The position numbers and the translations under genes are program-made. Source: Clostridiales bacterium (GTDB taxonomy: Bacteria; Bacillota; Clostridia; Christensenellales; QALW01). From it: a stretch of DNA of 55,356 nucleotides. Position 1 is the first letter of the stretch. Every line of letters starts with the position of its first letter. This document shows, one piece after another, positions 15,315 to 29,712 of this stretch. The stretch is taken from positions 1 through 55,356 of the forward strand of contig SVIH01000013.1 in the NCBI GenBank assembly GCA_015069575.1, in the 5' to 3' direction. The notes beneath the pieces are model-generated. The model was not told where the DNA came from, did not search any database, and saw only the letters and a list, made by a program, of their open reading frames with translations.

Positions 15315-15343
15315 TTGACTTTATAATCAGTTAGTGGTATGAT
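15315..15343 (+). promoter_or_regulatory. Promoter of the ABC import operon
   Basis: TTGACT (15315-15320) and TATGAT (15338-15343) have a 17-base spacer. It lies in the 414-base gap 15047-15460; the first 250 bases of that gap are AT-rich and show no gene or clear signal beyond a possible weak rmuC promoter on the minus strand. Confidence 0.75.
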
Positions 15344-15423: not shown

Positions 15424-15460
15424 GTTTTACAGATTTAATTTTGCATTCAGGAGGAACAAC

Positions 15461-18400
15461 ATGAAGTCTTTGATCAACAAAGTCATTGTCTTTGTAATTA
15501 CCGCTTCAATAGCATTGTCTATTTTTTCGTGCGTTTCGTTTGCTGCACCTGAAAATAACCAACAAAGCGGCGGCCAGGCATTGACCGAAACTAGCAAAGA
15601 TGTACAATCAGGCGAAATAGTTCTGCCAGAAGCTAAAGCTTTTGATAGTACTGTAAAAAGCGATGCTGATTATGATGCATATCTTAACAGTATCAGCGAT
15701 ACATCAAGGCCTGATGTAGAAATCAAATTAGGCGCAAAGGATGCAGTTCAGTTTGACGGCGAAACCGGCAAAATAATGGGCGAGCTTCCTATTGTGAAAA
15801 AAGCACCTATGAATAATCCAGGCAATGAGCGTGAAGGTGCACTTTTTTATGATGAAGGTATTTGTGGCTGGGTTGTTAATATTGAAACATCCGGTTGGTA
15901 TAATATTACATTCTCTTACCTTCTTTATGAAAATGTAACATATGATAAAGCAGGTCAGCAGATTAGTGCAACTGACAAAAGCTCTGCTGCTCAGCGTAGA
16001 ATTTATATCGACTATAAAGTTCCTTTCTATGAAGCACGTCAGGTTAATTTTGAGCGTGTTTGGAAGGATCAGAGCTTACTCCGCGTTGATGAGCAAACTC
16101 TTAATGAAAAGCGTCCATATCAGGAACAGACAGAACAGTGGGAAACTGTTGCTGTTAGGGATTATATGGGTTATGAGGGTGAGCCATTTAAATTTTACCT
16201 TGAAGCAGGCACCCACACAATTGCTTTTGAAGCAGTTAAAGAGGGTATGATTGTTGAATATGCTCTTATTCATCAGATTGCCACAGCACCTACATATGCT
16301 GATTTATTAAAACAGTATGAAGCACAGGGCTATAAAAAGGCAAGCGGAGAGGATAATGTTCTTTTTGTTCAGGCAGAAGGTCTTCATAATCCCGGTACAA
16401 GTAATGAAAAACTTAATGCTTATACATCAAAACAGTATTCAACATTCCTTACAGGTAAAAGCAGTGTGTTCGTAAATCAGTATAATAGTTTTATTGATCC
16501 GTTAGATACAAATGCTTATGATGCAACAAAGGATCCTACATATAACATCCTTAAATCATCACCAACGCTTTATGCTATTTCTGATAGATCATCTCCTTCA
16601 ACCGTACCTTATCATCATGCAAAGATTCGTTATAACACAATCGGTGCAGATAAGTGGCAGTCACCTAACGATTGGATTCAGTGGACTGTTAATGTTGAAG
16701 AAGCAGGCCTTTATGCAATAAGTTTTAAAGCACGCCAGAATACATTAACAGGTATGCACACCACACGTAAACTTACAATTAACGGTGTTCAGCCCTGTCA
16801 GGAAGTAGGAACACTTACATTCCAGTACAGCAACAACTTTAAGATGTATACACCGGCAATATATAAGACAAATGACAAAGGTGAGTATTTACTTGATAAA
16901 CACGGTAATAAAATAGTTGATGAGTACATGTATTTCTACCTTAACGAAGGCGCAAATACAATTCGTCTTGAAACAACGTTAGGTCAGCTTGGCGATCTTC
17001 TTGCTAAAGCAGAACGCAGTCTTTCACAGCTTAACTATGCATACAGAAGAATCCTTATGATTACAGGTCCTTCACCTGACCTTAACGCTAACTATATGCT
17101 TAATACAATGGTTCCTGATGCAATTAAGATTCTTAAGGACGAATATAAAAATCTTTCTGAACTTGAACAGGAATTCATTTCCATATACGATACAGGCGAA
17201 AACCGTGGTATTTCAGCACAGCTTTCAAGCTTAAAGAGTATGATACTTCTTCTTGAAAGAATGAATGTTGACCATAACCAAGTTCCTTCTTTGTTTACAA
17301 ACTTCAAAGATTCTATTGCTGCAATGGGTACATGGATCAATGATATGAGCCAGAACCCTGTTGAACTTGACTATTTTGTTATCGCAAGTGAGGAATATGT
17401 TCAGTTAAATACAATGCCAAAGGCAGATGCAAATTTCTTTGCAAAAGCATTGCATGAAATTCGCTCATTTATTGCATCATTTACTGAGGATTACGATAAC
17501 ATCGGTGGTACAGTTGCTGCTGATGGTCAGGCTCCTGTTGTAGTTTGGCTTGAAACAGGTGCAGGTCTTACAGGTTCTCGTGATAACGCAACAATTCTTA
17601 AACAGCTTATTGATGATATGTTTACAGATAAAACAGGTATTATCGTAAGCACCCGTCTTGTTGCAGGTGGTTCACTTTTACCTTCAGTTCTTTCAGGAAT
17701 TGGTCCTGAAATATGTCTTTCTCGTGGCGCGGTAGATGCTGTTAACTATGCATTCCGTGGCGCAGTTATGAATTTAGCAAACGAAGAGTTGTTCCCTGAT
17801 TATAAAGATATTCTTCAAAACACAAACCGTTATGCTGCAAGTGCAGTAGCTCCCTTTACATTTGGTAATGGAATTTATGCTGTTCCCGAAACACAAGATT
17901 TCTTTATGACATTCTATCGTACAGATATTCTTGAAGAAATCGGGCTTCAGCCCCCAGAAACATGGAATGATGTATACAATATTATTGGTCATCTTCAGAA
18001 TCAGCAAATGACATTTGCTATGCCCGTTCCTGTTGTAGGTGCAGTTGGTTCAGGTAACTTGTCCTTTGCAATGCTTCTTTATCAGAAGGGCGGTCAGTAT
18101 TATACTGAAGACCGTGATTCAACAGATCTTACTTCAGATGCAGCGCTTGATGCATTTAAAGAATGGACTGAATTCTATACATTATATAATCTTCCTAATA
18201 CTTATGACTTTGCAAACCGTTTCCGTACAGGTGAAGTTCCTGTTGGTGTAGCAAGTTATAGCCAGTATTCACAACTTGCAGTTTTCGCACCTGAAATTCA
18301 GGGTCTTTGGGAGTTCTCATTAGTTCCCGGAACTATCAAAACCGATGAAAAAGGTAACACACTTTATGATGAAAATGGTAATGTTGTGGTTGACCACTCC

Positions 18401-18856
18401 TGTGCAAGTAATACTTCAGGTTGTGTAATGCTTTCAATGGATTCTTCAACAGAAGAAGGCAGAAACAGAATTTCACGTGCTTGGGAGTTTATGAAGTGGT
18501 GGACAGGCGAAGATGCACAATATCGTTTCGGTACTGAAATTGAAAGTTTGCTTGGTGCTGCAGCACGTTATCAGACGGCAAACCTTCAGGCAATGTCAAG
18601 ACTTCCATGGGATAAGAAATCAATGACCATGATTCAGGAACAGTGGAAGTATTCAAAAGCAGTTCCTCAGGTTCCGGGCGGATACTATACAGCGCGTAAT
18701 ATTGAATTTGCATGGAAAGAAGTTATCAATAATGCGGCAGCTGATCCTAATACAACTTTCGTTGAATATGTAAGCAAGATCGATAGGGAAATTGACCGTA
18801 AACGCGAAGAGTTTAAGGATAAAATTGCAATAATGACAGGAAAGGCGGTAGAATAA
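15461..18856 (+). CDS. Giant extracellular solute-binding protein of a carbohydrate ABC importer
   Basis: A 1131-residue exported protein from ATG 15461 (AGGAGG seven bases upstream). The N-terminus is a signal peptide; a Cys in IFSCVSFAA might allow lipidation, but AxA-type cleavage is equally possible. Two beta-sandwich modules like carbohydrate-binding domains follow, each with the motif W-(V/T)-(V/W)N(I/V)E-x-(S/A)G-(W/L)Y (CGWVVNIETSGWYNITF and IQWTVNVEEAGLYAISF). A helical linker leads to a family-1 sugar-binding protein domain in the last 440 residues (VVVWLETGAGLTG ... FYRTDILEEIGLQPPETWNDV ... RAWEFMKWWTGEDAQ). Ordinary binding proteins have 400-550 residues, so this one carries about 600 extra. 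Two permease genes follow without a gap. Confidence 0.88.
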   Translation: MKSLINKVIVFVITASIALSIFSCVSFAAPENNQQSGGQALTETSKDVQSGEIVLPEAKAFDSTVKSDADYDAYLNSISDTSRPDVEIKLGAKDAVQFDGETGKIMGELPIVKKAPMNNPGNEREGALFYDEGICGWVVNIETSGWYNITFSYLLYENVTYDKAGQQISATDKSSAAQRRIYIDYKVPFYEARQVNFERVWKDQSLLRVDEQTLNEKRPYQEQTEQWETVAVRDYMGYEGEPFKFYLEAGTHTIAFEAVKEGMIVEYALIHQIATAPTYADLLKQYEAQGYKKASGEDNVLFVQAEGLHNPGTSNEKLNAYTSKQYSTFLTGKSSVFVNQYNSFIDPLDTNAYDATKDPTYNILKSSPTLYAISDRSSPSTVPYHHAKIRYNTIGADKWQSPNDWIQWTVNVEEAGLYAISFKARQNTLTGMHTTRKLTINGVQPCQEVGTLTFQYSNNFKMYTPAIYKTNDKGEYLLDKHGNKIVDEYMYFYLNEGANTIRLETTLGQLGDLLAKAERSLSQLNYAYRRILMITGPSPDLNANYMLNTMVPDAIKILKDEYKNLSELEQEFISIYDTGENRGISAQLSSLKSMILLLERMNVDHNQVPSLFTNFKDSIAAMGTWINDMSQNPVELDYFVIASEEYVQLNTMPKADANFFAKALHEIRSFIASFTEDYDNIGGTVAADGQAPVVVWLETGAGLTGSRDNATILKQLIDDMFTDKTGIIVSTRLVAGGSLLPSVLSGIGPEICLSRGAVDAVNYAFRGAVMNLANEELFPDYKDILQNTNRYAASAVAPFTFGNGIYAVPETQDFFMTFYRTDILEEIGLQPPETWNDVYNIIGHLQNQQMTFAMPVPVVGAVGSGNLSFAMLLYQKGGQYYTEDRDSTDLTSDAALDAFKEWTEFYTLYNLPNTYDFANRFRTGEVPVGVASYSQYSQLAVFAPEIQGLWEFSLVPGTIKTDEKGNTLYDENGNVVVDHSCASNTSGCVMLSMDSSTEEGRNRISRAWEFMKWWTGEDAQYRFGTEIESLLGAAARYQTANLQAMSRLPWDKKSMTMIQEQWKYSKAVPQVPGGYYTARNIEFAWKEVINNAAADPNTTFVEYVSKIDREIDRKREEFKDKIAIMTGKAVE

Positions 18857-19797
18857 TGGCTAATGCAGAAACCAAGGCTAAAAACAAGGCATTTTTCAAA
18901 GATTGGTTAAAATACCAGTTTAAAGAAATGCGCAAAAATGGCAGCCTGTATTTATTCATGCTTCCGTACCTTTTAGTATTTGCAACATTTACAATACTTC
19001 CCGTTATCGTTGCGATGTATTATAGTTTCACTTACTTTAACGTACTTGAGCCCCCACAGTTTATCGGCTTTGAAAACTATGTAAGGCTCTTTACTGCTGA
19101 TGACCTTTTTATGACTGCATTTAAGAATACATTATTCTTTGCAGTTATCGTAGGTCCCGGCGGATATATAATGTCATTGTTCTTCGCATGGCTTATTAAC
19201 GAGCTTGGCAGAAGAACAAGGGCAGTTATGACGCTTTTCTACTATGCACCATCTCTTGCCAACGTTTATGTTGTTTGGAAGATAATCTTTTCATCAGACC
19301 AATATGGTCTTTTGAACGGTTTCTTAATGAACACAGGTATTACACTTACCAATATAAAATGGCTTGAGAATGTTAATTACATAGTTCCGTGTTGTTTGAT
19401 AGTTATTTTATGGTCATCTCTTGGTACCAGCTTCCTTACGTTCATCGCAGGTTTACAGAACGTTGACCGTACATTATATGAAGCAGGCGCTATTGACGGT
19501 GTAAAAAACAGATGGCAGGAACTTTGGTTCATCACATTACCTTATATGAAGCCACAACTTATGTTCGGTGCTGTTATGAGTATCTCCGGCGCATTCTCAG
19601 TAGGTGCAGCAATTACACAGCTTGTTGGTTATCCCTCGCAGGACTATGTAGCCCACACGCTTATACATCATCTTGAAGACTACGCTAATCAAAGAATGGA
19701 ATTAGGTTATGCATGTGCTATTGCAGTACTTCTGTTCTTATTGCAGATAGTTGCCAACAAGGTGATTGCAAAAATGCTTTCAAAGGTGGGTGAGTAA
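18856..19797 (+). CDS. Sugar ABC transporter permease (MalF-like)
   Basis: A 313-residue inner-membrane permease with about six helices. The cytoplasmic EAA loop, where the ATPase docks, reads LYEAGAIDGVKNRWQELWFITLP, matching carbohydrate-uptake MalF/UgpA-type subunits. Its first base is the last base of the binding-protein stop codon, so translation is coupled. It pairs with the next gene. No nucleotide-binding subunit is found anywhere in this locus. Confidence 0.93.
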   Translation: MANAETKAKNKAFFKDWLKYQFKEMRKNGSLYLFMLPYLLVFATFTILPVIVAMYYSFTYFNVLEPPQFIGFENYVRLFTADDLFMTAFKNTLFFAVIVGPGGYIMSLFFAWLINELGRRTRAVMTLFYYAPSLANVYVVWKIIFSSDQYGLLNGFLMNTGITLTNIKWLENVNYIVPCCLIVILWSSLGTSFLTFIAGLQNVDRTLYEAGAIDGVKNRWQELWFITLPYMKPQLMFGAVMSISGAFSVGAAITQLVGYPSQDYVAHTLIHHLEDYANQRMELGYACAIAVLLFLLQIVANKVIAKMLSKVGE

Positions 19798-19800
19798 GAT

Positions 19801-20646
19801 ATGGCTAAAAAAATCAATCGTTCAGGCGCAGGTAACTTTTTAGGCATTTTCTTCTTATGCGCAGTAGCCTGCCTTATGGTTCTTCCAATGGTTTACGCTG
19901 TAGGTAACTCATTCAAACCTATGGATGAATTATTTAAATTCCCACCAACATTATTACCTAACAGATGGGTTACAACAAACTATACAGATTTGTTTGTTCT
20001 TATGGGTAACTCATGGGTACCTTTCTCAAGATATTTCTTCAATACCTTATTTATAACAAGTGTCGGCACATTTGGTCAGATCGTATTTTGTTCACTTTGT
20101 GCTTATCCTCTTGCTATGTATACCTTCCCAGGTAGTAAGTTCTTAGGAAATTTAATTAAAACCGCACTTATGTTTAATGGTACAGTTCTTTGGCTTCCTT
20201 TGTTTATGATCAAGGCAAAACTTGGTATGATCAATACATATTGGGCTATTATCATCCCAACATTCGGCTCGCCAATGGGTATGTACCTTATGCGTCAGTT
20301 TATGTCTCAGATACCAAGAAGCCTTGTTGAAGCCGCCCGTATTGATGGTGCAGGCAGCGTAAGGATTTTCTGGTCAATCGTAATGCCTCAGGTTAAATCT
20401 GCATGGCTTACACTTATGATATTCTCAGTTCAGAACCTTTGGAACTTAGGTGCATCAGTGTTCATTCAAAGTGAATCATTAAAAACTTTGCCTTATGCAC
20501 TTCAACAGATAGTTTCAACAGGTATTGCCCGTCAGGGTGTTGCTAATGCTGTTACAGTTATTATGATGTCAATTCCCATTGTAACATTTGTTATTTCACA
20601 AAGTAACATTATCGAAACAATGGCAACATCAGGTATGAAGGATTAA
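19801..20646 (+). CDS. Carbohydrate ABC transporter permease (MalG-like)
   Basis: A 281-residue partner permease with about six helices, the EAA loop LVEAARIDGAGSVRIFWSIVMP, and a MalG-like C-terminus. It starts three bases after the MalF-like gene and is followed after 13 bases by the NHL protein, whose ribosome site AAGGAGG overlaps the stop. Together the two permeases form the first translocation channel of the locus. Confidence 0.93.
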   Translation: MAKKINRSGAGNFLGIFFLCAVACLMVLPMVYAVGNSFKPMDELFKFPPTLLPNRWVTTNYTDLFVLMGNSWVPFSRYFFNTLFITSVGTFGQIVFCSLCAYPLAMYTFPGSKFLGNLIKTALMFNGTVLWLPLFMIKAKLGMINTYWAIIIPTFGSPMGMYLMRQFMSQIPRSLVEAARIDGAGSVRIFWSIVMPQVKSAWLTLMIFSVQNLWNLGASVFIQSESLKTLPYALQQIVSTGIARQGVANAVTVIMMSIPIVTFVISQSNIIETMATSGMKD

Positions 20647-20659
20647 GGAGGAACCAAAA

Positions 20660-22471
20660 ATGATGAAGTTTAAAAAATCAGCATCTCTGGTACTCGCCGT
20701 TATACTTGCATTAATGTTTACGGTTACAGCTTTTGCAGCTCCGTATCAGAACTATACAGTAACTGAAGGCGGTGTTTATTCCGACCCTCAGGCATATACA
20801 CCTGATAAGGTTATCAACAGTGGTTATATTGGTGTTGAAAACCTTGATGGCAAAGCATTTTCAAATCCGCAAGATTTAACACAGTTTGATGGTAAAGGTT
20901 ACATTCTTGTTTCCGATACAGATAATAACCGTGTTGTAGTGCTTGATAAAGATATCCGCACAGTAAAGCAGATTATCTATGGCTTTACCAAAAATGGCGT
21001 TGAAGAAACCTTTAATAAGCCAAACGGATTGTTCGTTCATGAAGAAGGTAAATATCTTTATGTTTGCGATACCGAAAACAAACGAATTGTAAGATATTCA
21101 TTTAATGAAGCAGAAGACAAGTTTGTTTTTGACAGAACTTTTGATGACCCTGATCTTGCACAGTACTTTAAAGATGCAGCACAGGGTGCAACAAATACAA
21201 CAGCACAGCCAACACCTCTTCCTACAGTAGCACCTGATACTGAAACAGAAAACAATGAAAATAACGATGCAACGCAGGAAGAACCAATCGTTGATGATAG
21301 TGAAATTGAAATCGACAACAGCGGTGATGGTGATAGCGTATCATCAGCAACAGATATTACATACAGACCTCTTAAAGTAGTTGTTGATAGTGCATACCGT
21401 ATGTTTGTAGTATCTAAAAACTGCTATCGTGGTCTCGTAGAACTTTCTGATGATGGTGAATTTACTAAATTCTTTGGTGCCACAAAAACAAAGCAGACTC
21501 TTTCTGCATTGCTTAACCGTTTGTTTACAGAAAAAGCGAAGGATAAGCTTCAGGCTAACCTTTCAACAGAATACAGTAATATTACAATAGATAAACAAGG
21601 ATTTGTTTACGGCACAATTTCACAGCTTAAAGTAGCAGATCTTATTTCTCACTTTACTGCCGCAACTGAAGTTGGCGCTGCACTTAGAAAACTTAATGCA
21701 GCAGGCTCTGATGTTCTTAAAAGAACAGGCATTATACCGCCTTCAGGTGATAATGGTGATGGTATCAACAGATCCACATATTCATTCCTTTGCGATGTTA
21801 CCGTTTCAGAAAACGGCCTTACAAGCGTATTAGATTCACAAAAAGGTCGTGTTTTTACCTATACAAGCACAGGCGAACTTTTATATGTTTTCGGTGCACT
21901 TGGTAAAAATAAAACAACAGTTGGTGAAACAACATCAAGCCGTGCAGATCAGGTTGGATATACTGAAGGCACAAACCTTAACCCTGTTGCAATTGAACTT
22001 TTAACAGATGATGAAACCATTCTTATTCTTGATTCAACAGGCGCACAGATTACAACCTATAAGCCTACTGAATACGGTCTTATCCTTCGTGATGCTGTTA
22101 ACAGCCATGAAGAACGCCGTTATGATGACGCTGTTAAAGCATGGAACAAGATATTAGGTATGTCCTCAAACTCAGCCCTTGCATATAAAGGCGTAGGTAA
22201 AGTTTATTACCTTTGGGCTGCAGAAACAGAAGTTGTTAATAACGATACAAGCGAGCAACGTGAAAAATTCCTTGAAGCCGCTGATTACTTTATGAAGGGC
22301 TATTCACAGGAAGAATATGGAAAGGCTTTCTATAAGTACAGGGATCTTGTTCTTGAAAAAGCAATGCCATATATAATGTGGGCAATTATTATAATAACCG
22401 TAGTAACACTTGTTACAGGTTGGTATAAGAAATTTAAGAAATTCGTAGAAACAGGAGGAAGAAATCAATAA
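20660..22471 (+). CDS. Secreted NHL beta-propeller and TPR protein with C-terminal membrane anchor
   Basis: A 603-residue protein. The signal peptide is about 1-27 (TAFAAPY). NHL-type repeats follow, for example NPQDLTQFDGKGYILVSDTD with NRVVVLDKD and NKPNGLFVHEEG with YLYVCDTENKRIVRY; more blades come after an acidic Thr/Asn/Glu-rich insert (about 175-235). Residues 480-565 form TPR-like helices (ERRYDDAVKAWNKIL, ALAYKGVGKVYYLW, EYGKAFYKYRDL). A membrane helix near 570-590 anchors it, leaving a short basic tail. Beta-propellers of this kind often bind sugars or proteins, so it may be a surface receptor for the importer; this is inference. It shares one base with the YIP1 gene. Confidence 0.8.
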   Translation: MMKFKKSASLVLAVILALMFTVTAFAAPYQNYTVTEGGVYSDPQAYTPDKVINSGYIGVENLDGKAFSNPQDLTQFDGKGYILVSDTDNNRVVVLDKDIRTVKQIIYGFTKNGVEETFNKPNGLFVHEEGKYLYVCDTENKRIVRYSFNEAEDKFVFDRTFDDPDLAQYFKDAAQGATNTTAQPTPLPTVAPDTETENNENNDATQEEPIVDDSEIEIDNSGDGDSVSSATDITYRPLKVVVDSAYRMFVVSKNCYRGLVELSDDGEFTKFFGATKTKQTLSALLNRLFTEKAKDKLQANLSTEYSNITIDKQGFVYGTISQLKVADLISHFTAATEVGAALRKLNAAGSDVLKRTGIIPPSGDNGDGINRSTYSFLCDVTVSENGLTSVLDSQKGRVFTYTSTGELLYVFGALGKNKTTVGETTSSRADQVGYTEGTNLNPVAIELLTDDETILILDSTGAQITTYKPTEYGLILRDAVNSHEERRYDDAVKAWNKILGMSSNSALAYKGVGKVYYLWAAETEVVNNDTSEQREKFLEAADYFMKGYSQEEYGKAFYKYRDLVLEKAMPYIMWAIIIITVVTLVTGWYKKFKKFVETGGRNQ

Positions 22472-23112
22472 TGGAAAAGCTTAAAAACTTTGGCGCAGAC
22501 CTTAAATATGCTTTTCATGTTATATGTCATCCTCTGGACGGTTTCTGGGATCTTAAACATGAAAAACGCGGTAGGGCATATATATCAGTTTTATTCCTTG
22601 TAATGTATGTTATAACCAGCATATTAAATAAGCAGTTTAACAACTATACATTCAACGAATTCAAAGTATTCCCTGAAGATATCAACATTGTTGGTACATT
22701 TGTAACAACAGCACTTGTAGTTGTTATATGGGTTGCTGCAAACTGGGGCCTTACAACGCTGTTTGATGGCGAAGGTTCAATGAAAGATGTGTTCCTTTAC
22801 ACAGGCTATTCAATGTTACCTTTGGTTCTTTCACAGATCGCGCTTATTCCCCTTACAAACATTCTTACTGTTAACGAAGCAACAATCGTTACATTAGTAA
22901 CAGTACTTGGTTACGGTTGGTCGGCTATATTGTTATATACCGGTACAATGACCACACATCAGTATTCTGGTGGTAAAACATTTATTATTATTCTTGCAAT
23001 ACTTTTAGGTATGGTTATTATAGTATTTATAAGCATTCTGTTCTTCTTCCTTGTTCAAGAAATATGGAACTTTATTTATACTATATATCGCGAACTTGAG
23101 CTTAGAAGGTAA
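22471..23112 (+). CDS. YIP1 family membrane protein
   Basis: A 213-residue protein with five predicted membrane helices in the YIP1/DUF1282 arrangement: an N-terminal amphipathic stretch with HPLDGFWDLKHEKRG, then helices around 40-55, 75-95, 110-135, 140-160 and 170-200. The function in bacteria is unknown. It is embedded between the NHL protein and the DUF5696 lipoprotein, each overlapping or touching it, so it is a structural part of this operon. Confidence 0.85.
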   Translation: MEKLKNFGADLKYAFHVICHPLDGFWDLKHEKRGRAYISVLFLVMYVITSILNKQFNNYTFNEFKVFPEDINIVGTFVTTALVVVIWVAANWGLTTLFDGEGSMKDVFLYTGYSMLPLVLSQIALIPLTNILTVNEATIVTLVTVLGYGWSAILLYTGTMTTHQYSGGKTFIIILAILLGMVIIVFISILFFFLVQEIWNFIYTIYRELELRR

Positions 23113-23129
23113 TGGGGGTGGAAAGTAAT

Positions 23130-25871
23130 ATGAAAAAGAAACTTATTTCTGCCTTGCTTGTGTTAATGCTTATCCTTCCTATGATAGCTTTTACCGGATG
23201 TGCAGACAAGAATTATGACGGGTTTATCACACCCGAAAATACTGAAGAACTTTATAAATTCAGTAAAGATGTAAAAACACTTGTTCGTCCTGATGTACTT
23301 ACTCACAAGGTAAACGAAACAGCAGATACTAAATATGAGCTTAAAGATACTATTTTTAAACTTGTAAAAGAGAACAAGTCATATGAATTTTATTTCTGTG
23401 AAGAAACACTTGAAATCGCATTAAAGAGCAAAACTACAGGAGATGTATGGTATTCAAACCCTGCACCATCTGAAAGGGATGCCGGAATTAAAGGCGATAT
23501 GTCAAGCCAACTTTCCCTTTTCTATCTCAACAAGCAAGATGGAAGCCAAAATACACTTTATAGTTATACGGATTGTGTTCTTGAATCTAATCCGGATGAA
23601 GATAAATATCAGTATTTTGCAGTAAACCATAACGGGAACCTTCGTGTTATTTATATTTTAGGTAACTTGAAACCCGATTATATTATTCCTACTTGTCTTG
23701 AAGGTGAAATGGCACTTGAATTTGTTGAAAAATTCAAAGCAAGTTCTGAATTCAGAACTGTTGCTTCCTATCTTACTAACGGAAGTCTTTATGCTGAAGT
23801 TACTCCTTCTGTTTGGAACAGTTGGACATTGGATGCTCAGCAAGAATATCTTAAAATAGCACCTTTGATGGGTGATATGCTTAAAGATGGCAAAACGGTT
23901 TATATTATCAAAGATCAAACAAAGTTCTATAACAAGAAACTTATGAAAAAAATCGAATCGGCATTCGTTGAAGTTATAGGTATGACTCTTGAAGAACGAA
24001 ATGAAATTAATGCCGAGTTCGGTTATGTTGCAGAATCAGCAAAAACATTCTGGATTCCCGTTGATTATGAACTTACAGAAACAGGTCTTAAAGTAACAGT
24101 TCCTAACGAAGAAATTCAGTATGATAAAAACTCACTTTCCCTTGTTTCAATTGATCTTCTCAGATACTTTGGATCAGCATCCAAAGATGAAAAAGGATAT
24201 ATGTTTGTTCCTGATGGATCAGGTGCTATTATAAACTTTAATAATGGTAAAACAAACATTACAAGTGATATTCGTGTACAGCTTTACGGCCTTGATGATG
24301 GTAGGGAAATGCTTACAAAACCCTATCTTAATGAAGGTGCATATCTTCCTGTATTCGGTATTAAACGCGAAAATAGCGCGATGTTTGCCGTTATTGAATC
24401 GGGGGATACAAACGCAACAGTTGTAGCAGATATTGCAGGTAAAAATGTAAACGCTGTTGATCGCAATAAGTGCTTTACAAGCTTCAAAATGAGTGAATAT
24501 GAAGAGCTTCAGTTCAAAAATGCGGGTAAAAAAGCAAAAATTTATCAGTATAATATGAACACAGCAGATCTTTCAATTAATTACACTCTTCTTGATAATG
24601 AAAAAGCCAACTACAATGGTATGGCTGAATATTATAGAAACTACCTTATTAATAAAGGTGTTATTGCAAAGAAAGATTTCAGCAACATTCCTTTTAACAT
24701 TGAACTTGTTGGTGCTTACGACCATAAAACAGCATTCCTTGGTGTGCCCTATACAGAAACAAAGGCAATTACAACCTTTGCTCAGTGTAAGGAAATTTTA
24801 ACAAAACTCAATGAAGCCGGTATTAAAAATGTTTCAGTTAACTACAAGGGCTGGGCAAATAACGGTTTAAGAAACACTGTTTTCAACAAAGTAAAAGTTC
24901 TTAAAGAACTCGGTGGAAAAGATGGTCTTAAAGATCTTCTTGATTATGCAGATACATTAGGTATTAATTTGTATCTTGAAACAGAACTTGCTTTTGTTTA
25001 TGAAAATTCAATGTTCAGTGGATACAGTGAATTTACAAAAGCATCTCGTCTTGTAACAAGAAATGTTGCATATCATTATCAGTATTCAGATGACTGGAAT
25101 ACCGCTTCATCATTAAATGCAGCATCTATTGTTTCACCTACTGTTATTTATGATATTGATAAAACAGATAATTCAAAAAGTTTTGCAATGAAACTTCTTA
25201 ATGATCTTAATAATCTTAATATCAAAGCAGTAAGTCTTGGTAGTCTTGGATATAATCTCCCAGGAAACTACAAAATAAAAGATTTTAGCGATAGGCAAAA
25301 GGTTTCTGAAATTTATTCAGCAGTAGCTAAAAAATATGGCGAAACCCTTTCTGTTATGACAAAGGGAACAAACTCATATATGCTTCCTTATGTAACTGAA
25401 ATTTTTGAAATCAGCAACACAAGCAGTAAATTTAACCTTGCAGATATGTCTGTTCCATTCTATCAGATGGTAATTCATGGCTGCATAGAATATTCAGGCG
25501 ATCCAATTAACTTAGATGGTGATACACGCCAGGTATTCCTTCAGGCAGTTGAAGCAGGCGCAGGCTTGTATTATCGTTGGTGTTATGCGCCAAACGATCA
25601 GGTACAGGAACTCTGGTTTGAAGGTATGTACTCATTAAGTTATGAATCATGGTTTGAAGGCGCTATTCAGATGTATAAGGAATACAATGATCTCCTTGCT
25701 TCTACAGCAAATTCATTTATGATTGAGCATCAGATCGTTGATGAAGATGTAGTTAAAGTTACATACGAAAACGGTGTTTATGTATACATTAACTATAATT
25801 CATATGATTATACTGCTGCTGATGGAACTTTAGTAAAAGCAGAATCTTTTGTAAAGGGAGGGGTAAACTAA
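23130..25871 (+). CDS. DUF5696 lipoprotein, possible TIM-barrel glycan-active protein
   Basis: A 913-residue protein from ATG 23130, behind GGGGGTGG; a start at 23112 overlapping the previous stop is possible. A lipoprotein-type signal ends at FTGC. The first half is beta-rich (YEFYFCEETLEIALKSKTTGDVWYSNP; FVPDGSGAIINFNNGK; AMFAVIESGDTNATVVAD), like the beta-sandwich front part of several glycoside hydrolases. The second half looks like a TIM barrel (IKNVSVNYKGWANNG; LKDLLDYADTLGINLYLETE; YRWCYAPND). I recognise it as DUF5696, a family of unknown function found with ABC permeases and YIP1 proteins in Firmicutes. A role in binding or trimming the imported glycan is inference. Confidence 0.78.
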   Translation: MKKKLISALLVLMLILPMIAFTGCADKNYDGFITPENTEELYKFSKDVKTLVRPDVLTHKVNETADTKYELKDTIFKLVKENKSYEFYFCEETLEIALKSKTTGDVWYSNPAPSERDAGIKGDMSSQLSLFYLNKQDGSQNTLYSYTDCVLESNPDEDKYQYFAVNHNGNLRVIYILGNLKPDYIIPTCLEGEMALEFVEKFKASSEFRTVASYLTNGSLYAEVTPSVWNSWTLDAQQEYLKIAPLMGDMLKDGKTVYIIKDQTKFYNKKLMKKIESAFVEVIGMTLEERNEINAEFGYVAESAKTFWIPVDYELTETGLKVTVPNEEIQYDKNSLSLVSIDLLRYFGSASKDEKGYMFVPDGSGAIINFNNGKTNITSDIRVQLYGLDDGREMLTKPYLNEGAYLPVFGIKRENSAMFAVIESGDTNATVVADIAGKNVNAVDRNKCFTSFKMSEYEELQFKNAGKKAKIYQYNMNTADLSINYTLLDNEKANYNGMAEYYRNYLINKGVIAKKDFSNIPFNIELVGAYDHKTAFLGVPYTETKAITTFAQCKEILTKLNEAGIKNVSVNYKGWANNGLRNTVFNKVKVLKELGGKDGLKDLLDYADTLGINLYLETELAFVYENSMFSGYSEFTKASRLVTRNVAYHYQYSDDWNTASSLNAASIVSPTVIYDIDKTDNSKSFAMKLLNDLNNLNIKAVSLGSLGYNLPGNYKIKDFSDRQKVSEIYSAVAKKYGETLSVMTKGTNSYMLPYVTEIFEISNTSSKFNLADMSVPFYQMVIHGCIEYSGDPINLDGDTRQVFLQAVEAGAGLYYRWCYAPNDQVQELWFEGMYSLSYESWFEGAIQMYKEYNDLLASTANSFMIEHQIVDEDVVKVTYENGVYVYINYNSYDYTAADGTLVKAESFVKGGVN

Positions 25872-26765
25872 ATGAAAAAGCCAAGAAGTTATAAATTAGG
25901 TTTGATGACAAGGCGTTCTTTGTCAGGATGGCTGTTCATTCTTCCTTTCCTTATAGGATTGATATTCTTCGTAATATCACCTCTTTATACCGCACTTGTA
26001 CTTTCATTTAACGAACAGGTGTTTAATGATGTAACTCAGATCACAAGCATATCGCCATATGGTTTTAAAGCATATATTGATGCATTTACAGAACAGGCTG
26101 ATTATATAAATAAACTTATTGAATCAGGCTCAAGTGTTCTTATTACAGTGCCTTCAACACTTATATTCTCATTCCTTATGGCAAACGTGCTTAACCAGGA
26201 ATTCCGTGGCAGAACATTTGCCCGTGCGGTACTCTTTATGCCTGTTATCACATCAGCAGGTATTGCAGCATCGCTTTTAGCGGGGGATACAGGTGTTGAC
26301 GCTTCACAGATGGACTCTGTTGGCTCACAAACAATGGATATAGCAACAAGTATTCAGGATACCATTGGTGGTGAGATGGGTATGTTTATAGGTACAGCAT
26401 TCTCAAAACTTACACAAATTATCAATGGCGCAGGCGTTCCAACACTTATTTTCCTTGCAGGTCTTCAAACAATATCACCATCTATCTTTGAATCTTCAAA
26501 GGTAGAAGGTGCAACAGGATGGGAAAATTTCTGGAAAATTACATTCCCGATGATTAGCCCTATGATCCTTGTTAATACCGTTTATATTCTTATTGAAAAC
26601 CTTTGTAGTATGAGCAATCCAATGTTAACTTATTTATATAGTAACAACGCTACAACAAAAACGGTTGACCTGATGGCGATGAGCTGGATGTACTTCCTTT
26701 TAACATCTTTGATTATTGCAGCAGTAGCAGGCATTATTTCAAAGCTTGTTTACTATGAGAACTAA
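25872..26765 (+). CDS. Second sugar ABC permease, MalF-like
   Basis: A 297-residue permease beginning immediately after the DUF5696 stop with AAAGGGAGG upstream. It has about six helices and an EAA loop FESSKVEGATGWENFWKITFP, in which the usual Glu-Ala-Ala is replaced by Glu-Ser-Ser. It has an insert of about 60 residues (GDTGVDASQMDS ... GGEMGMFIG) between helices. It pairs with the next gene to form a second channel in the same operon. Confidence 0.9.
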   Translation: MKKPRSYKLGLMTRRSLSGWLFILPFLIGLIFFVISPLYTALVLSFNEQVFNDVTQITSISPYGFKAYIDAFTEQADYINKLIESGSSVLITVPSTLIFSFLMANVLNQEFRGRTFARAVLFMPVITSAGIAASLLAGDTGVDASQMDSVGSQTMDIATSIQDTIGGEMGMFIGTAFSKLTQIINGAGVPTLIFLAGLQTISPSIFESSKVEGATGWENFWKITFPMISPMILVNTVYILIENLCSMSNPMLTYLYSNNATTKTVDLMAMSWMYFLLTSLIIAAVAGIISKLVYYEN

Positions 26766-26778
26766 GGGGGTGTAGATA

Positions 26779-27816
26779 ATGGAAAAAACCGATAAAATTA
26801 AGCTTACAAACGAAGTTGGTGCTGAAGAGGTTGATAATTTCGTCATTCCAACACTTACACCTTGGCAAAAGTTTAAACGCGCATTATTTGGAAAGCGTAC
26901 ATTTAGCTTCGTGTGGGGACTTATAAGAACTGTTTTATTAATTGGTATTTGCTATCTTATTATCTATCCCTTGATGATAACTTTGATAACATCATTTATG
27001 CCTCTTGACGATGTTTATGATCCAACAGTTATTTTAGTTCCAACAGCTATCAATATTAATACTTATGTTGCAATGTGGAGCTATGGTCATATTCCGCAAC
27101 TGTATTTTAGTTCATTCTCAACATCACTGATGTTTGCACTAATGCAGATGTGCTCTTGTATGTTGGTTGCATACGGTCTTGCAAGATTTAAGTTTAAAGG
27201 AAACAATTTTATATTCCTTATGTGTATCTTCACATTGATGATTCCTATTCAGATGCTTACAACATCAATGTATTTCAGATACAAAGCATTTAACCCAATG
27301 TTTATGTTTGCGTTTGGTGAACAACTTTCAACAGTTCCTAATATCGACCTTACACGCGGTTGGACGGCAATTGGCTTATTATCAAGCACTGCAACAATGT
27401 ATCGTAACGGATTGTTTGTATTCTTGCTTCGTCAGTATTTTGTTAACCAACCCAAAGAACTTGAAGAAGCTGCTTATATTGACGGCGCAGGCCCATTTAG
27501 AACATTTATTCAGGTTATGCTTCCAAGTGCATTACCAATGCTTGTAACAGTATTCCTGTTTGCATTTGTATGGCAGTATAATGACCGTTATTACATTGGT
27601 ATGCTTAATCCTAATGCAGAAGTTATGGCAACCCGTGTTACCGGTATGGGCGCAAACTATGTAAAAAGTGTTCTTGATGTTTCAGGCGATGCAGTACTTA
27701 ATTCACTTTATCAGTCTGCATGTACCATAATGCATATTGCACCAATTGTTGTGCTTTATTGCTTCTGCCAAAAATTCTTTGTTCAAAGTATTGAACGTTC
27801 TGGTATGGTAGGCTAA
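26779..27816 (+). CDS. Second carbohydrate ABC permease, MalG-like
   Basis: A 345-residue permease with an N-terminal cytoplasmic extension of about 40 residues before the first helix, then six helices and the EAA loop LEEAAYIDGAGPFRTFIQVMLP. It is the last gene of the operon and is followed by a bidirectional terminator. No second solute-binding protein accompanies this pair, so it may share the giant binding protein or use the DUF5696 or NHL lipoproteins as receptors. Confidence 0.92.
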   Translation: MEKTDKIKLTNEVGAEEVDNFVIPTLTPWQKFKRALFGKRTFSFVWGLIRTVLLIGICYLIIYPLMITLITSFMPLDDVYDPTVILVPTAININTYVAMWSYGHIPQLYFSSFSTSLMFALMQMCSCMLVAYGLARFKFKGNNFIFLMCIFTLMIPIQMLTTSMYFRYKAFNPMFMFAFGEQLSTVPNIDLTRGWTAIGLLSSTATMYRNGLFVFLLRQYFVNQPKELEEAAYIDGAGPFRTFIQVMLPSALPMLVTVFLFAFVWQYNDRYYIGMLNPNAEVMATRVTGMGANYVKSVLDVSGDAVLNSLYQSACTIMHIAPIVVLYCFCQKFFVQSIERSGMVG

Positions 27817-27825
27817 TTTAAAATA

Positions 27826-27856
27826 AAAACTGTTCTTTTATAAGAACAGTTTTTTT
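27826..27856. terminator. Bidirectional intrinsic terminator
   Basis: A 12-bp inverted repeat (27826-27837 with 27842-27853) with A- and T-runs ends the ABC operon and, on the other strand, the short Gin gene, whose stop codon lies in the T-run. Confidence 0.9.
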
Positions 27857-28120: not shown

Positions 28121-28819
28121 TTATTTTGACATTATTTTATGTGCTAAAATAGCAGCGTCTTCATTAGGTAAACAGGTTAATTTATACACGGGTGTTTTTT
28201 CAATCAATTTATCAAGAAGTTCCATAAGTTTTAAAGTTTTATCATTACCTGCCCGTCTCAATGTTTGCGAAAGTAACTTATATATTACAGTTTTTTTATC
28301 ACTGATCTGTTCTATTTTGTTTTCTTCTCCTCGTTCTAAAAAACAAATTGCCTTAAGCGGAATGCAAATGTTTTCATTTAATGGGCTAGAACCGCTAAAA
28401 GGAGTTCCACAAGCATAAAAAGAACCGTTAATTAACCTAATGGCAGGCTTATCATCATTTATTATCTTCGCAGATTCAAAAACTTGTTTCCAAAGATTAG
28501 TATGCGTTGATTTACCTGTGCCTGAATCAGCAGAAAATAAATAAGCATTGTTTTCATAAGCAACTGCGGATGAATGTAAAACAAAACAATCAAAATCAAG
28601 TAATGCTGCATTTAAGTATTTAGAAAGATAAATATATAAACAATCGTCTTGACTTAGTTCAGAATGTTGTTTACTTAAGTTTTCAACAAGCTCATCCTTT
28701 ACCTTTAGCGTAATATCAGGTGTTTCAGTAAAATCCGTCAAATATTTCTCTGCCTGAATTGCGCTTTTTCCTAAACATTCCATATTAACTAAAAGTCCGG
28801 CAATGGAATATGTGTTCAT
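28121..28819 (-). CDS. HprK-like P-loop kinase (PEP carboxykinase-fold)
   Basis: A 232-residue protein from ATG 28819, sharing one base with the rfbA stop. The HPr kinase/PEP-carboxykinase-type P-loop is SADSGTGKSTHTNLW, preceded by LHSSAVAYENNAYLF and followed by IINDDKPAIR, which carries the metal-binding Asp pair. The DNA-binding or N-terminal domain of true HprK is absent. Kinases of this small type occur in peptide-modification loci beside PqqD-like proteins, where some phosphorylate a peptide. A PqqD-like gene lies 1 kb upstream. No precursor peptide or radical SAM gene is seen, so the substrate is unknown. Confidence 0.8.
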   Translation of the reverse strand: MNTYSIAGLLVNMECLGKSAIQAEKYLTDFTETPDITLKVKDELVENLSKQHSELSQDDCLYIYLSKYLNAALLDFDCFVLHSSAVAYENNAYLFSADSGTGKSTHTNLWKQVFESAKIINDDKPAIRLINGSFYACGTPFSGSSPLNENICIPLKAICFLERGEENKIEQISDKKTVIYKLLSQTLRRAGNDKTLKLMELLDKLIEKTPVYKLTCLPNEDAAILAHKIMSK

Positions 28820-29712
28820 CAAAACTTTTTGTTCCTCTCTGCAAGTTCAAGAATATATTTGCCATAATCACTTGTTTTTGTTTCTTCACCTAATGCTCTT
28901 AATTGTTCAGTAGTAATAAAACCACGGCGCCAAGCAATTTCTTCTATACAGGAAATATAGAAGCCCTGAAGTGATTGAACTGCTTGTACATAGTTTGAAG
29001 CAGTAAGCATACCAACAGGCGTACCTGTATCAAGCCAAGCCATACCACGACCCATTAAAATAACATTAAGTTCGCCTTTTTCAAGATAAGCATTGTTAAT
29101 AGATGTAATCTCAATCTCACCTCTTGCAGAAGGCTTAACATTTTTAGCAATTTCAATTACGCGGTTATCATAGAAATATAAACCGGGTACTGCAAAATTA
29201 CTTTTAGGATTCTGGGGTTTTTCTTCAATAGAAATAACCTTGTGATTAGAATCAAACTCAACAACACCAAATGCTCTTGGATCAGAAACAGGGTAACCGA
29301 AAATTGTTGCACCGGATTCAAGCTTGTTTGCACGGAACAAAAGTTGTGAAAAATTCTGTCCATAGAAAACATTATCGCCTAAAATAAGGCAAACATTATC
29401 ATTACCAATAAATTCTTCGCCGATAATAAATGCATCAGCAAGACCTCTTGGTTCAGTTTGTACAGCATAAGATATTTTTATACCAAGGCGTGAACCGTCA
29501 CCTAACAATTTTTCGTAAAGAGGTGTATCGTCAGGGGTAGAAATAATTAAAATTTCATCAATACCTGCAAGTAATAAAATAGAAAGGGGATAGTAGATAA
29601 GGGGTTTGTCATAAATAGGTAAAAGTTGTTTTGAAATAACTTTTGTCATAGGGTAAAGTCTTGTGCCTTTACCACCGGCAAGAATTATACCTTTTGTTTT
29701 TCTAGTATTCAA
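28819..29712 (-). CDS. rfbA: Glucose-1-phosphate thymidylyltransferase
   Basis: A 297-residue nucleotidyltransferase that makes dTDP-glucose (or a related sugar nucleotide) from glucose 1-phosphate. Motifs: [50 protein letters not shown] and WLDTGTP. The length fits RfbA/RmlA. The start is assigned to TTG at 29712, eight bases after GGAGG; the TTG at 29727 would place the ribosome site inside the gene. No rfbB, rfbC or rfbD accompanies it; instead the HprK-like gene is coupled by a TGATG junction. Its own promoter lies at 29762-29790. Confidence 0.92.

Follow-up and report, generated by a model that had tools for sequence, protein, structure and literature searches.

Importers of the CUT1 type that depend on a shared MsmX/UgpC ATPase, such as AraNPQ-MsmX of Bacillus subtilis and others, combine MalF/MalG-type permease pairs and a MalE-type solute-binding protein (SBP) with a multitask ATPase encoded separately. 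Gram-positive polysaccharide utilization loci (gpPULs) of Paenibacillus and Lachnospiraceae group a regulator, an SBP and permeases with xylan and mannan hydrolases. Here we compare these systems with an operon from a Clostridiales bacterium (assembly GCA_015069575.1), located on a stretch of 55,356 nucleotides of contig SVIH01000013.1 (hereafter the window). At positions 15461-27816, eight forward-strand genes separated by -1 to +13 bases encode, from 5' to 3', a giant SBP, the permeases PermA1 and PermA2 (pair A), a protein with a beta-propeller and TPR repeats, a YIP1-family protein, a DUF5696 lipoprotein, and the permeases PermB1 and PermB2 (pair B).

We read this operon as a double CUT1-type ATP-binding cassette (ABC) importer of oligosaccharides, acting as one unit with a propeller-YIP1 membrane scaffold, and assign this reading a probability of roughly 0.6 on the basis of sequence comparisons. 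At the cell surface, the giant SBP would capture oligosaccharides for pair A, and an ordinary SBP would do so for pair B. The giant SBP could use its extra beta-sandwich domains to gather longer glycan chains for pair A, while the ordinary SBP, whose gene adjoins the block in most relatives, would here probably be an orphan lipoprotein from contig C11. A single MsmX would energise both permease pairs, the propeller/TPR protein and YIP1 would probably hold or assemble the complex, and DUF5696 would hold or remodel glycan at the surface near pair B, with hydrolysis of the GH129 type being the less likely mode. The absence of an ATPase from such an operon is ordinary; the central question is the job of the three conserved accessory proteins (propeller, YIP1 and DUF5696), whose roles we infer.

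Conservation of the gene set

The gene set was followed in two samples. The close sample, chosen by similarity, comprises 85 loci from the best 80 DUF5696 relatives on genome contigs and from genomes of the window's own order, a few of these entries being the same genome fetched twice. Because of this choice by similarity, we added a phylum sample of 40 DUF5696 neighbourhoods from a draw of 398 genomes. All 81 complete loci of the close sample share the same eight-gene order, a recurrence greater than chance would give, the other four being cut by contig ends. Of the 40 phylum loci, 37 retain the complete five-gene core (propeller-YIP1-DUF5696-PermB1-PermB2), and the remaining three are cut by contig or stretch ends. 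The SBP-PermA1-PermA2 module is present in 30 of the 40, mostly ahead of the core and behind it in five. At L198, L199, L201 and L206 the stretches retrieved, which extend about 5 kb or more to either side, do not contain it. These counts bear out the proposal of an earlier, sequence-only reading (the first-pass annotation) that the block is a single conserved unit. The converse possibility, that the permease pairs usually occur apart from YIP1 and DUF5696, is rejected for pair B, which never does so in about 125 loci; in some genomes pair A is missing or has changed place. The set as such occurs in both Bacilli and Clostridia, and some Paenibacillus genomes carry several copies of it. An open literature search returned no paper on DUF5696 and none linking YIP1 with such transporters, and this widely conserved operon is apparently undescribed so far.

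In 11 of the 85 close loci and 24 of the 40 phylum loci, a single fusion protein combines YIP1 with the propeller protein, with a clean junction just past the membrane helix of the latter. Such fusions argue that the two proteins work together, and they probably serve as a scaffold in the membrane or as an assembly factor.

Permeases and a probable shared ATPase

CUT1 importers contain two MalF/MalG-type permeases, each with a cytoplasmic EAA loop on which the ATPase docks. Two such pairs are encoded here, PermB1 being diverged. Their EAA loops are intact on all four permeases and conserved, those of pair B resembling the loops of importers. The eight other BPD_transp_1 matches in the genome resemble, by size and neighbours, oligopeptide, polyamine, amino-acid or ion types, and the four permeases of the operon appear to be the only CUT1-like ones. 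The first-pass annotation had looked to a shared MsmX-like ATPase elsewhere in the genome, and exactly one ATPase exceeds the UgpC cut-off: an orphan gene (G000:C21:8033-9145, G000 being the window genome) that would supply the MalK/UgpC/MsmX-type component from outside the operon. Its product has 7x0q and B. subtilis MsmX as closest solved relatives (486 bits to B. subtilis MsmX). Four residues of MsmX, D77, R104, E110 and K154, have been examined by mutation (PMC7658222), and the orphan keeps the first three. By elimination, since no other CUT1-like permeases appear in the genome, this lone MsmX/UgpC-type ATPase most likely drives the permeases of the operon. We therefore rejected the idea that the missing ATPase is a puzzle.

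A UgpC/MsmX-type ATPase is likewise the single one over the cut-off in nine of 11 genomes checked. The first-pass annotation had also considered an ATPase gene regularly placed just outside the block. No MsmX-like ATPase gene adjoins it in about 125 loci (best match 108 bits). The one exception, a further locus on a plasmid record of Paenibacillus cellulosilyticus, has ugpC 37 bases ahead of the giant SBP gene, the only direct genetic link found.

The 1.6-Mb window genome also has ten apiosidase-like (PF13204) matches on contigs C1, C11, C18 and C21 (L250-L257), two of them separated from the orphan ATPase by a few genes.

Giant and ordinary binding proteins

Taken alone, the giant protein matches no family at E 0.001, and 19 of 20 relatives match SBP_bac_1/8. 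In its structural model, residues 691-1120 adopt a MalE-type fold (Z 34.5 over 373 residues; root mean square deviation 2.9), the best match being a beta-1,2-glucooligosaccharide binder, so that the model places a MalE-type SBP within the operon. Two beta-sandwiches and a helical stretch precede this domain. Weak CBM35 and GH115_C matches in some relatives, together with the strand pattern, suggest that the two N-terminal domains are similar to carbohydrate-binding modules (CBMs).

In 74 of 83 close loci and 31 of 40 phylum loci, including the four named above that lack pair A, the block has a gene for an ordinary SBP of about 440-500 residues next to it. The first-pass annotation described pair B as having no ordinary binding protein, which holds for the window block itself and not for most relatives, and proposed DUF5696 or the propeller as its receptor. 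Given the SBPs beside relatives' blocks and an orphan SBP in the window genome, neither protein need be a receptor. The orphan has orthologues in both genus mates (72 and 67%) and probably serves pair B. Three genomes of the wider order (G003, G004 and G015) encode 7 to 10 such SBPs, several in tandem without adjoining permeases, and few CUT1-like permeases outside this block, which makes it plausible that many receptors serve one permease block. Tandem SBP arrays without permeases were seen in relatives at L243, L244, L245, L247 and L249.

The DUF5696 lipoprotein

The model of DUF5696 (mean predicted local distance difference test score, pLDDT, 89.4) matches the GH129-type fold over residues 83-919, with Z scores of 29 to NagBb, 28 to the Zobellia anhydrogalactosidase ZGAL_3152 and about 19 to GH101; shorter DUF5696 relatives cross-match Pfam GH129 and GH101. 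The predicted fold is that of GH129, and neither catalytic residue is kept. When the DUF5696 profile was aligned to true GH129 relatives (99.0% probability) and tied to NagBb, an alignment at about 20% identity, the position of the catalytic Asp435 of NagBb (Asp486 of ZGAL_3152) fell on Gly710 in the window protein; 48 of 65 relatives have Arg there. Glu478, the second catalytic residue and acid/base of NagBb, corresponds to Lys751, at a position that is variable among the 65. By the same alignment, positions changed in the NagBb quadruple mutant also differ. Other acids are conserved: Glu814 in 65/65, Asp778 in 64/65 and Asp/Glu623 in 61/65. The Zobellia enzyme has retained a single one of the two NagBb catalytic residues, Asp435, and is nevertheless active (PMC5698469). 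This fold can thus accommodate a rebuilt active site, so that loss of activity in DUF5696 is likely, not proven. The sequence and the model make a glycan-holding pseudo-glycosidase more likely than a standard GH129. The first-pass annotation had suggested a surface glycan processor and a search of the barrel for a conserved acidic pair. A GH129-like fold was found without the catalytic aspartate of GH129, which makes the processor role less likely.

Elsewhere in the window genome (contig C6, L050:8437-10134) a further DUF5696/DUF6259 protein, shorter at 565 residues, is encoded without other operon genes beside it. Close NagBb-like GH129 proteins occur in relatives of the order (L057:6657-8528 and L059:6809-8623), one of them adjoining CUT1-like permeases.

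Genomic setting and substrate

Many relatives carry AraC/response-regulator or LacI genes upstream of the block, and genes for GH10, GH43, GH26, GH2, GH113 and others downstream; in Butyrivibrio the block is accompanied by a kinase/regulator pair that includes a histidine kinase, by GH43 and by SBPs. These neighbours point to glycan import, in line with the carbohydrate import proposed at first pass, and probably to different glycans for each copy. Substrate specificity thus probably varies between copies, relatives' blocks lying beside genes for xylan, mannan and other glycans. An adjoining regulator and glycoside hydrolases, as in a Gram-positive PUL, are present in many relatives and were not seen at the window locus.

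Alternative readings

The readings that compete most directly concern DUF5696. With its active site rearranged, it could still be a working glycosidase, or cleave glycans in some other way, and so shorten them at the membrane ahead of their import through pair B. The GH129-like fold across most of the protein, the activity of the Zobellia enzyme and the remaining conserved acids speak for this, whereas the aspartate common to NagBb and the Zobellia enzyme is replaced, the acid/base position drifts and the quadruple-mutant positions have changed; we regard an active enzyme as possible but rather unlikely. DUF5696 could instead be the receptor of pair B, being a lipoprotein whose gene directly precedes PermB1-PermB2, the usual place of an SBP in CUT1 operons, in every locus examined, and no ordinary SBP adjoins the block in the window genome. 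However, its fold is not that of an SBP, ordinary SBPs accompany most relatives' blocks even where pair A is missing, and the window genome has its own orphan candidate, so that a receptor role is unlikely.

Pair B, DUF5696, the propeller and YIP1 might also form a sensor that reports occupancy to a regulator, or a mechanical device that remodels surface glycan, with the permease pair as a relay of signal or force. The regulators upstream of many relatives' blocks, the histidine kinase of Butyrivibrio and the occurrence of this module without pair A in some genomes fit such a role, and the SBP CuaD of R. cellulolyticum works in signalling (PMC10384115). The importer-like EAA loops of pair B, its accompanying SBPs and the lack of a regulator beside the window copy make it very improbable. 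A more far-reaching form of the importer reading is that all eight proteins make one surface machine, in which the propeller-YIP1 scaffold couples two ABC permeases to a pseudo-glycosidase that threads or hands on glycan chains, in a role comparable in Gram-positives to the Sus-type import of large glycans; this we consider doubtful.

Several observations weigh against the double importer with its scaffold. The orphan ATPase has Met in place of K154 of MsmX, and contact between the two permease pairs in one physical assembly is putative. No ordinary SBP lies beside the window block; the orphan SBP (L240:6744-8282, minus strand) was found by a profile of ordinary SBPs, only part of which it matched (G000:C11:29181-30014, E 6e-13), is diverged, was missed by SBP_bac_8, and is linked to pair B by elimination. 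No hydrolase or regulator was seen beside the window copy, and among the hydrolases sought family by family in the window genome, GH43 was not found. On the P. cellulosilyticus plasmid (L259, record 79630-108244), several LLM-class flavin oxidoreductases are interleaved with SBPs after the block. This arrangement hints that the substrate of that copy is unusual, and glycan import need not be the task of every copy.

Layout and flanking genes

The extent, place and strand of the eight-gene block given by the first-pass annotation are confirmed by the open reading frames and Pfam matches, and neither the block nor the scanned neighbours contain an ATPase, a recognised glycoside hydrolase or a regulator, as it had also stated (Table 1). 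Pfam matches are BPD_transp_1 in the four permeases (sub-threshold in PermB1, 20.9 bits) and NHL, Yip1 and DUF5696 (595 bits) in the respective proteins. The Shine-Dalgarno sequence supports the start codon assigned to the giant SBP. Genes on both sides lie on the opposite strand: RmuC precedes the operon, and two genes follow it, one whose product has no Pfam match and one for a nucleotidyltransferase. The former (28121-28822, minus strand) adjoins the operon in genus mates too, at 50-53% identity.

Table 1. Features of the operon and its borders (window coordinates)
Feature	Position	Strand	Remarks
Promoter-like site	15315..15343	+	TTGACT-17-TATGAT with extended TG (extended -10); consensus match, common by chance
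Shine-Dalgarno	15449..15454	+	AGGAGG, read in sequence; precedes ATG at 15461
Giant SBP	15461..18856	+	1131 aa; signal peptide, two beta-sandwiches, helical region, C-terminal MalE-type domain (~689-1120)
PermA1	18856..19797	+	CUT1-like permease, UgpA/MalF type; EAA loop EAGAIDGVKNRWQELWFITLP
PermA2	19801..20646	+	CUT1-like permease, UgpE/MalG type; EAA loop EAARIDGAGSVRIFWSIVMP
Propeller/TPR protein	20660..22471	+	NHL beta-propeller and TPR; secreted (signal peptide); single C-terminal membrane helix ~563-590
YIP1	22471..23112	+	YIP1-family polytopic membrane protein
DUF5696	23112..25871	+	Lipoprotein, lipobox FTGC; GH129/GH101-like fold
PermB1	25872..26765	+	Diverged CUT1-like permease; EAA loop ESSKVEGATGWENFWKITFP
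PermB2	26779..27816	+	CUT1-like permease; EAA loop EEAAYIDGAGPFRTFIQVMLP
Terminator-like hairpin	27825..27854	+	13 pairs, then T-rich; 9 bases past last stop; pattern match, common by chance

Comparison with described systems

Bacteria that degrade plant fibre keep this gene set together, often adjoining xylanases and mannanases. If its products work as one machine, this would explain the uptake of large glycan fragments by Gram-positive fibre degraders, assign functions to DUF5696 and to YIP1 of bacteria, and provide a test case for two permease pairs on one ATPase. The window genome, with a single CUT1-like locus and a single MsmX-type ATPase, is a clean setting for such work.

In contrast to AraNPQ-MsmX-type systems, this operon has two permease pairs in a fixed arrangement, a giant SBP with CBM-like domains, a propeller, YIP1 and DUF5696. 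DUF5696 resembles NagBb, ZGAL_3152 and GH101 in predicted fold (Z 27-29 for GH129-type proteins), but differs from NagBb and ZGAL_3152 in having only about 15% identity, in not conserving the catalytic Asp and acid/base Glu, and in its place within a transporter operon. Relatives' loci share with gpPULs the regulator, SBP, permeases, and xylan and mannan hydrolases. In the operon described here, the invariant core is instead a permease pair, usually two, together with three uncharacterised accessory proteins, and neither a hydrolase nor a regulator was seen at the window copy.

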